Assembly (NCBI RefSeq): GCF_014904705.1
Contig: NZ_JACZCQ010000003.1
Location: 1-64,000 of the forward strand
Direction of reading: 5' to 3'
Length of the DNA: 64,000 nt
From: Nisaea sediminum
GTDB taxonomy: Bacteria; Pseudomonadota; Alphaproteobacteria; Thalassobaculales; Thalassobaculaceae
This document shows positions 54,878 to 56,819 of the stretch, piece by piece. The position numbers were made by a program, and so were the translations under genes. The notes below the pieces were generated by a model. That model had not been told where the DNA came from. It saw only the letters and a program-made list of their open reading frames with translations, and made no database searches. Numbering within the stretch: the first letter of the stretch is position 1; each line of letters opens with the position of its first letter.

Positions 54878-55855
54878 TCACGGCCAGACAGGCGCGCCCT
54901 CCAGACCCGCGGTTTCCGGCAGGCCACAAATAAGGTTCGCATTCTGCACCGCCTGGCCGGCCGCGCCCTTGCCGAGATTGTCGACCACGCCCATCGCGAT
55001 CACCAGGTTCCGTTCCGGATCGGCCGCATAGCTGACGAAAGAGAGGTTCGAGCCGGTCGCCCACTTGGTCTGTGGCGGCCTGTCCGTCACGCGCACGAAC
55101 GCCCGCCCGGCATAGAAGCGGCGGGCCGCATCGAGGCACTGCTCCGTGGTGGCCGCGCCGCGGCAGTACATCGTGACCAGCACGCCGCGGGTCATCGGCA
55201 CCAGATGCGGGGTGAACACCAGCCCGGCCGCATTGCCGCCGCTCAGCCGCTCGATCGTCGTCGCCATCTCCGGCATGTGGACATGCTTGAGCAGGCCGTA
55301 GGGTACCAGGTTCTCGTTGCTCTCCGCATAGCCGAACCTGCTGTCGGCACCACCCCGGCCGGCCCCGGAGATTCCGGTCTTGGCGTCGACCACGATGTTG
55401 CCGGGCTCGATCAGCCCCTCGACCAGCAGCGGCGCCAGTGCGATCTGCGCCGCTGCCGGAAAGCAGCCGGGATTGGCAACGCGGGTCCGCCCCACGATCC
55501 GGTCCGGCCAGACGTCGGCGAGGCCATAGGCCCAGCCCTCGACGTAGCGGTGATCGCCACCGATATCGACGATCTTCACGTCATCGGGCACGCGCGCCAG
55601 CGCCTCGGCCGACGTTCCGGTGGGCAGCGACGCGAACAACAGATCGAGCTTAGGCAGGGTCAGGGGATCCCATTTCTCGATCACCATTCCGGCCAACTTG
55701 TCCGGCACCCCGGGGAAGCGATCCACAAGACGGCTGCCGGCGCTCCCCTCGCCCGCGGCGTAGACAAGCTCGAAGGATGGATGGCCCGCGATCAGGCGCA
55801 GCGCCTCGCCGCCGCCGAAACCGCTGATCCCGACAATGCCGAAACGAATGCTCAT
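54878..55855 (-). CDS. argC: N-acetyl-gamma-glutamyl-phosphate reductase
   Basis: A 325-residue NADPH-dependent reductase of the ArgC family, making N-acetylglutamate semialdehyde in arginine synthesis. The nucleotide turn is VGISGFGGGEALRLI, shorter in aromatic residues than the usual GxSGYTG. The catalytic Cys131 is in ANPGCFPAA, and the histidine in HVHMPEM fits the active site. It follows the GNAT gene with a 4-base overlap, and the pair lies behind an arginine-rich leader peptide with a terminator. That arrangement supports the arginine assignment. A LysY-like role is the main alternative. Confidence 0.87.
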   Translation of the reverse strand: MSIRFGIVGISGFGGGEALRLIAGHPSFELVYAAGEGSAGSRLVDRFPGVPDKLAGMVIEKWDPLTLPKLDLLFASLPTGTSAEALARVPDDVKIVDIGGDHRYVEGWAYGLADVWPDRIVGRTRVANPGCFPAAAQIALAPLLVEGLIEPGNIVVDAKTGISGAGRGGADSRFGYAESNENLVPYGLLKHVHMPEMATTIERLSGGNAAGLVFTPHLVPMTRGVLVTMYCRGAATTEQCLDAARRFYAGRAFVRVTDRPPQTKWATGSNLSFVSYAADPERNLVIAMGVVDNLGKGAAGQAVQNANLICGLPETAGLEGAPVWP

Positions 55856-56556
55856 GATGAAATCTCCTCAGGTGTTGCGCTAATTCGGTTTCGGACGGAG
55901 AGAATCTGGCTCAGATCCTTGACCATCAGGATCCACTCGCCGGGTGTGTCCGAGCCTGGAAAGGGTGTGAAAGGCCGGCGGTCCCATTCGACGAAACCGG
56001 TCTGCCGATAGAGCGCCCGGGCCCGCGGATTGAAGCTGCCGACCATGAGGGTCAGTCGGTCGCTCCCCGCCGCCCTGGCGCGCGCTTCGGCCTCGGCGAG
56101 CAGGGCTTTTCCGAAACCATGCCCCTGATGCTCTGGATAGATCGCCGCCGCAGACAGGTACCAGGTCCCGGCCGCAACGGACTTCAGTGCGTTCAGCGGC
56201 GCCAGCACCTCAGACGTCATAGAGGGTTGGCCCGTCAGGTCCGGCTGGATATAGCCGTTGATCGCACCGACAACCTGACCTCGACACTCGGCGATGCGCC
56301 AGTTCGCGTAGCGGGACAGATGTGTCTCGTCGTTGCGGATGATGGCCCGGCCGGCCTCGAATGCCGATTGGCCCGGGGCGGCAACAAGGCCCCAGAGATG
56401 GGAGGTCAGGCGGCGGGTCGCCATGTCGGCCAGCAAAGCGAGATGAGTGCAATCCTCCGGGCAGGCGAACCTGAACCGGATGTCTTTGGCGGCGTCCTTG
56501 ACGGCAGTGTCGGCCTGCAGTCCTGCGGACGCACCGGTGGTGTAGGAAGACGGCAT
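55852..56556 (-). CDS. GNAT family N-acetyltransferase
   Basis: A 234-residue acetyltransferase. The acetyl-CoA loop is IYPEHQGHGFGKALLAEAEARARAAG, followed by LTLMVGSFNPRARALYRQTGFVEW, the GNAT motif B. The first 25 residues are probably flexible. It is first in an operon with argC, behind an arginine-rich leader peptide and terminator, so its substrate may be glutamate, ornithine or another arginine-pathway amine (inference from context). The ATG at 56556 has GGAGC upstream. Confidence 0.85.
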   Translation of the reverse strand: MPSSYTTGASAGLQADTAVKDAAKDIRFRFACPEDCTHLALLADMATRRLTSHLWGLVAAPGQSAFEAGRAIIRNDETHLSRYANWRIAECRGQVVGAINGYIQPDLTGQPSMTSEVLAPLNALKSVAAGTWYLSAAAIYPEHQGHGFGKALLAEAEARARAAGSDRLTLMVGSFNPRARALYRQTGFVEWDRRPFTPFPGSDTPGEWILMVKDLSQILSVRNRISATPEEISS

Positions 56557-56582: not shown

Positions 56583-56618
56583 AAATGAAAAATCCGCCGG
56601 TCGAAAGTGACGGCGGAT
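56583..56618 (-). terminator. attenuator terminator before GNAT-argC
   Basis: The stem ATCCGCCG/CGGCGGAT (on the minus strand 56611-56618 with 56592-56599) has an 11-base loop and is followed by TTTTTCATTT. It stands 27 bases before the GNAT start and after an arginine-rich leader ORF, not after a gene. Its 5' arm overlaps CGCCGTC (56609-56615), which is fully complementary to GACGGCG (56685-56691) inside the leader ORF, giving a competing antiterminator. Confidence 0.8.
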
Positions 56619-56649
56619 AGTTGCGGTATCGTGGATGAGAAATGGGAAA

Positions 56650-56754
56650 CTAGCTTTCCCGGGATCCTCGTCGTCGTCGCAGCACGCCGTCGCGCAGACT
56701 CTCGCTACGGAGTCGACGTCGCATTTTGCCGGCGGTGAGAAAATCGATGACCAT
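56650..56754 (-). CDS. arginine-rich leader peptide of the GNAT-argC operon
   Basis: A 34-codon ORF with ten arginine codons, all among the last 23: codons 12-14 (CGA CGT CGA), 16, 21, a run of four CGA codons 26-29 (56668-56679), and 32. The stop codon TAG (56650-56652) lies in the loop of a perfect hairpin GGGAAA/TTTCCC (56644-56660). A terminator follows at 56583-56618. The layout is that of ribosome-mediated transcription attenuation by arginine. A start at the internal ATG (56724) would give 24 residues and keep all arginines. The ribosome-binding site is weak, which lowers confidence. Confidence 0.6.
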   Translation of the reverse strand: MVIDFLTAGKMRRRLRSESLRDGVLRRRRGSRES

Positions 56755-56819
56755 GCAGGCACCGTGGCGGGCTTCCCGTCGGGAGTCAATCGCTCCTGAT
56801 CCCGCACCCGCCGCGCAAC

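Follow-up and report, generated by a model that had tools for sequence, protein, structure and literature searches.

A predicted trp-type arginine attenuator upstream of a mobile GNAT-argC gene pair in Nisaea sediminum

Described attenuators and arginine-rich leaders

The trpL/rnTrpL attenuator of Sinorhizobium meliloti combines an alphaproteobacterial leader peptide containing a run of one codon with an antiterminator and a terminator that exclude each other, and its leader RNA starts at the leader ATG (PMC7298713). The Arg leaders described here share the codon run, and a mutually exclusive antiterminator and terminator as well as, from the spacing of the -35 element, a transcript start at the ATG are predicted for them; however, trpL has 14 codons, reads Trp codons and serves a core pathway, whereas the Arg leaders have 20-37 codons, use Arg codons and precede mobile accessory genes. 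Tandem cognate codons together with an antiterminator/terminator switch are likewise found in the amino-acid attenuators of proteobacteria and actinobacteria (trp, leu, ilv, his, thr and phe, as well as the cysS motif uORFC-8-2) (PMC1262725, PMC8632094). With regard to arginine, a survey of Actinobacteria lists T-boxes as the control, not attenuators, and observed that the regions before arginine operons share no conserved RNA structure (PMC1262725). SpeFL of Salmonella, encoded by the speF leader ORF34, resembles the present leaders in that consecutive Arg codons within a short ORF slow the ribosome, which alters mRNA folding; it differs in the use of Rho and RNase G, in having only two consecutive Arg codons and in its ornithine decarboxylase target, and the speF layout consists of a long leader with no intrinsic terminator (PMC6386406).

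Covariance models of the Rfam leader and attenuator families gave no match in the window (the whole stretch of 64,000 nucleotides that was analysed) or at related loci. To our knowledge, earlier proteobacterial surveys include no arginine transcription attenuator. A trp-type transcription attenuator based on arginine codons was not found in the open-access PMC literature, preprints excluded, in agreement with a sequence-only reading of this DNA, which knew of none of such kind.

The leader and the genes that follow it in the window

Downstream of gatB, the minus strand of the window carries in order a leader ORF, an intrinsic terminator, a GNAT-family gene and argC. The features are as follows.

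56784-56789, minus strand: TTGACT, predicted -35 element, beginning 35 nt before the leader ATG; the spacing is similar in nearly all related leaders
56650-56754, minus strand: leader ORF of 34 codons, MVIDFLTAGKMRRRLRSESLRDGVLRRRRGSRES, stop TAG; homologous leaders in L036, L316 and L287
56707-56721, minus strand: first Arg cluster, codons 12-16, CGA CGT CGA CTC CGT; predicted sensing site
56685-56703, minus strand: putative antiterminator 5' arm, GAGAGT and GACGGCG
56666-56679, minus strand: second Arg cluster, codons 26-29, four CGA; predicted position at which a ribosome covers the antiterminator arm
56644-56660, minus strand: GGGAAA/TTTCCC hairpin around the leader stop codon
56603-56615, minus strand: putative antiterminator 3' arm, CGCCGTCACTTTC, overlapping the 5' arm and loop of the terminator
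56587-56618, minus strand: intrinsic terminator, ATCCGCCG / CGGCGGAT and T run
55852-56556, minus strand: GNAT1, GNAT-family N-acetyltransferase gene, 57% identical to the copy in the family relative G034 and 65% to that on the A. vitis plasmid
54878-55855, minus strand: argC of the TIGR01850 type, a second and mobile argC, whose ATG overlaps the GNAT1 stop (ATGA)

The sequence-only reading had described a 34-codon leader with ten Arg codons including a run of four CGA, and such a leader is present on the minus strand with its coordinates right. The TAG stop was indeed seen within the loop of a perfect GGGAAA/TTTCCC hairpin, and the intrinsic terminator noticed between leader and GNAT1 has its arms at 56611-56618 and 56592-56599, followed by the T run. 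The ten Arg codons are six CGA, two CGT, one CGC and one CGG. At the local Arg frequency, at least ten Arg in 34 codons has a probability of about 4e-5; the use of CGA for six of the ten is improbable (P about 4e-5) because only 8% of the local Arg codons are CGA, and an equally Arg-rich ORF appeared in one of 2000 shuffles of the intergenic DNA. The leader is not a chance ORF.

In 58 of 60 argC-type leaders, the sequence TTGAC begins 36-38 nt upstream of the ATG; the distance is 35 nt in the window and in G034 (L036), and the A. vitis leader is likewise preceded by TTGAC. For the leaders of the RidA-like gene and of L287 this box formed part of the search pattern, and they are not independent cases. 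From this spacing, transcription is predicted to begin at about the leader ATG, giving a leaderless mRNA as for trpL of Sinorhizobium.

GNAT1 shows weak similarity to streptothricin and other drug acetyltransferases. An identity of the GNATs as N-acetylglutamate synthases was weighed because it would fit ArgC, and was rejected in view of the lack of any family or structure match beyond generic GNAT similarity. Elsewhere, the genome from which the window derives contains a TIGR01851-like argC, and the Arg leader is absent before the housekeeping argC of this genome. Convergent to the argC of the window is an Hsp70-like (YegD-type) gene similar to PRK11678 (53578-54819).

Recurrence of the leader before argC, GNAT and RidA-like genes

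Close copies of the window argC (about 85-91% identical) occur in Methylobacterium, Bosea, Bradyrhizobium, Reyranella, Roseomonas and even Cupriavidus and Polaromonas, as well as on plasmids of Agrobacterium (Ti plasmid), Paracoccus and Roseomonas. In a test with the TIGR01850 model, the mobile argC was accompanied by another, more distant argC in each of 22 genomes. On this distribution, the argC of the window type is an extra, mobile gene. An Arg leader followed by a terminator precedes argC at 56 of 80 named loci, mostly in Methylobacterium, Bosea, Reyranella and Roseomonas; fifty of these leaders stand directly before argC and six are separated from it by one or more genes. The first intervening gene is a GNAT of a family other than that of GNAT1 in five of the six (L072, L099, L104, L124 and L132), and at L089 it encodes a small SnoaL-like protein (2535-2942). 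L072 includes in addition a GDSL esterase in the leader-argC operon. No leader was found at the betaproteobacterial copies (L075, L076, L087 and L092) nor at several others among the 80. The systematic scan, which yielded 61 leaders, had the terminator as a requirement, and all 61 therefore carry one.

Alignment of 51 argC-type leaders demonstrates the constancy of the Arg frame. The first three codons of the run encode Arg in every one of the 51, as does the fourth in 49; changes at the fourth codon are mostly synonymous (CGC/CGT), whereas many of the codons around the run change their amino acid. The runs are three to five Arg long and Lys is never found within them.

A covariance model built from the argC leaders picks up the leader of the G034 GNAT, which was outside the training set (27.5 bits, E 2e-5); the window leader is too diverged and is missed by this model. 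Other matches of model R1 in relatives, at about 31 bits and below, showed no recognisable leader among the best twenty, which were inspected. A loose pattern consisting of Arg run, antiterminator and terminator arm was dropped, as it gave as many matches in a reversed control.

Close relatives of GNAT1 were found in two places besides the window, namely in G034 (57%, L036) and on an A. vitis plasmid (65%, L316), and a homologous Arg-rich leader with terminator precedes the gene in all three. The expectation that the leader would be conserved in relatives is thus borne out by G034, the A. vitis plasmid and the argC leaders; both leader and GNAT1 are absent from the closest same-genus genomes. 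GNAT1 is not located near the other argC copies, and Arg leaders are lacking before more distant GNAT paralogues. A second GNAT family (DAYAKWVPVIGREP..) stands under Arg leaders at L072, L099, L104, L124, L132, L243, L244 and L287, with argC present or absent. Three leaders were found in Roseomonas nepalensis: argC follows one of them, and the other two precede a GNAT of the second family without argC. In Plastoroseomonas (L287) a leader of another sequence type precedes such a GNAT, again without argC. One of the two GNAT copies of Roseomonas nepalensis that follow a leader (L244) has an open frame of only 111 codons and may be truncated.

The genome of the window carries a second Arg leader (MIISTYRRRRSPTFAFARRR), followed by a terminator, before a RidA-like gene (G000:C6:22138; L283, about 179 to 360). 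No close orthologue of this gene turned up in 60 relatives, in which one match of 40% identity lacks an Arg leader. A second Arg cluster near the end of the leader, located in the window at 56666-56679, was also observed in L283 and L036. By its distribution, the leader is judged to be part of a mobile regulon made up of argC, two GNAT families and a RidA-like gene, not of the arginine pathway as such.

RNA folding, proposed switch and competing explanations

The heptamer GACGGCG (56685-56691) had been proposed to pair with CGCCGTC (56609-56615), and inspection shows an exact complement that overlaps the 5' arm of the terminator. Adding GAGAGT (within 56695-56703), which pairs with ACTTTC, lengthens the helix to 13 bp in all. 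By our estimate the complementarity of 7 bp is by itself near the chance level, and it is the comparative evidence that carries the case. In 42 argC leaders, the hairpin inside the Arg run pairs in 97.6% of cells, with compensatory changes at one pair, the antiterminator GGGCTGCG:CGCAGCCC pairs in 93% and the terminator pairs in 99.5%. Sliding the antiterminator lowers its pairing to 28-69% of cells, two helices together. Two-sided changes are few and true covariation is limited because these leaders are so alike. The terminator and antiterminator sequences of the GNAT-type leaders differ again from those of the argC type.

We also folded the window leader with its 5' part masked by a ribosome. 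The terminator arm is sequestered to 0.65 with the A site at codons 12-16, and to 0.02-0.2 with the A site at any codon between 19 and the stop, those of the CGA run included. The same dependence on ribosome position was obtained for the RidA leader. Masked folding thus reproduces the logic favoured beforehand, in which a stall at codons 12-16 frees the antiterminator and a ribosome on the CGA run covers its arm, with a P of 0.06 for the window when the position contrast is compared with shuffles of the intervening sequence (0.02 for RidA and 0.15-0.94 for the others). The folding evidence is supportive of a ribosome-position switch and not decisive, the contrast being weak by the shuffle control. 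When the full-length transcript is folded, the terminator comes out almost everywhere as the most stable structure, in keeping with a kinetic switch.

We consider it probable that GNAT1 and argC are controlled by a ribosome-mediated transcription attenuator of the trp type which senses how much charged tRNA-Arg is available. Ribosome stalling, antitermination and the sign of the response to Arg-tRNA we infer as follows. Transcription would begin at the leader ATG or within a base or two of it, leading to immediate ribosome loading. With ample Arg-tRNA the ribosome would clear codons 12-16 and cover the GACGGCG arm, whereupon the terminator at 56587-56618 would halt transcription. When Arg-tRNA is scarce the ribosome would stall at codons 12-16, leaving GAGAGT/GACGGCG to pair with CGCCGTCACTTTC so that no terminator is formed and GNAT1-argC is transcribed, translation of argC presumably being coupled to that of GNAT1 via the ATGA overlap. 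Expression of the mobile set, comprising the second argC, the GNATs and the RidA-like protein, would be confined to arginine stress. In the leaders of the window and of the RidA-like gene, a ribosome stalled at the second Arg cluster would enforce termination, and this cluster may either set a threshold or have no effect.

The most serious rival is drug-dependent stalling, because the gene in the window is a mobile acetyltransferase. A macrolide-type antibiotic in the exit tunnel would stall the ribosome at Arg-X-Arg, the antiterminator would be freed and a resistance acetyltransferase switched on; the motif RRLR in the window leader, the occurrence of Arg-Leu-Arg in known antibiotic-resistance leader peptides (PMC8632094) and the resemblance, if weak, of the mobile GNAT to streptothricin and other drug acetyltransferases are all in line with this. 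However, the commonest target is argC, a gene of arginine biosynthesis, and the Arg runs of the aligned leaders are longer than such a stall needs and devoid of Lys. A charge-based stall at Arg/Lys-X-Arg/Lys should tolerate Lys. We know of no drug linking argC, GNAT and RidA, which also counts against drug sensing, and we regard this explanation as improbable. Less likely still is a nascent-peptide arrest like that of SpeFL, sensing a small molecule (arginine, ornithine or a relative) and not the supply of Arg-tRNA. The Salmonella speF leader, with 34 codons and two adjacent Arg codons, does control a gene of arginine/polyamine metabolism (PMC6386406), but it uses Rho whereas the window locus has an intrinsic terminator. 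Moreover, the leader peptides of the different types (MLRNQNLCDRRRRRC, MGNLRLRTANRRRRC, MVIDFLTAGKMRRRLRS) are hardly conserved outside the Arg codons, and a fixed sensor sequence is therefore lacking, which makes a sensor of this kind unlikely.

We attach a similarly small probability to the leader RNA or peptide acting in trans, as a small RNA or a small Arg-rich protein, with the terminator merely ending its gene. The trp leader RNA and peptide of S. meliloti do act in trans (PMC7298713), but the Arg leader is found attached to a member of a small group of downstream genes, and the partner of its conserved stem is the arm of the terminator; action in trans may take place in addition to attenuation. 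As for a chance Arg-rich ORF in GC-rich DNA beside an ordinary terminator, CG-rich sequence readily yields Arg codons and the closest same-genus genomes are devoid of the leader, but this origin, to which we give next to no credence, is refuted by the recurrence, the invariant Arg frame, the promoter spacing and the conserved pairing. Of the proposed attenuator, the sequence, its conservation, the spacing of the promoter, the conserved stems and the recurrence on unrelated genes are observed directly.

What the attenuator may serve is more speculative. In a tentative reading, which we think rather doubtful, it governs a mobile arginine-stress regulon: an attacker (an arginine antimetabolite, an inhibitor of arginyl-tRNA synthetase or a toxin cutting tRNA-Arg) would deplete charged tRNA-Arg, and the attenuator, sensing this, would induce a detoxifying acetyltransferase and a spare ArgC. 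If this were true, the attenuator would represent a plug-in sensor, borne on plasmids and reused before unrelated protective genes. The predicted arginine attenuator forms a family that spans several orders of Alphaproteobacteria and also occurs on plasmids, and it is unusual in accompanying horizontally moving genes rather than a core pathway. What the mobile genes respond to could be tested simply by means of the leader, which is also a potential native sensor of arginyl-tRNA charging.

Putatively attenuated argC copies were observed on plasmids at L317 (pTiCFBP4996, an Agrobacterium Ti plasmid), L319 (Roseomonas) and L318, the Arg run of L317 being shortened. At G024:C2:49602-50573 (L011), a leader-bearing argC is in several pieces, suggesting a frameshift or an assembly error.
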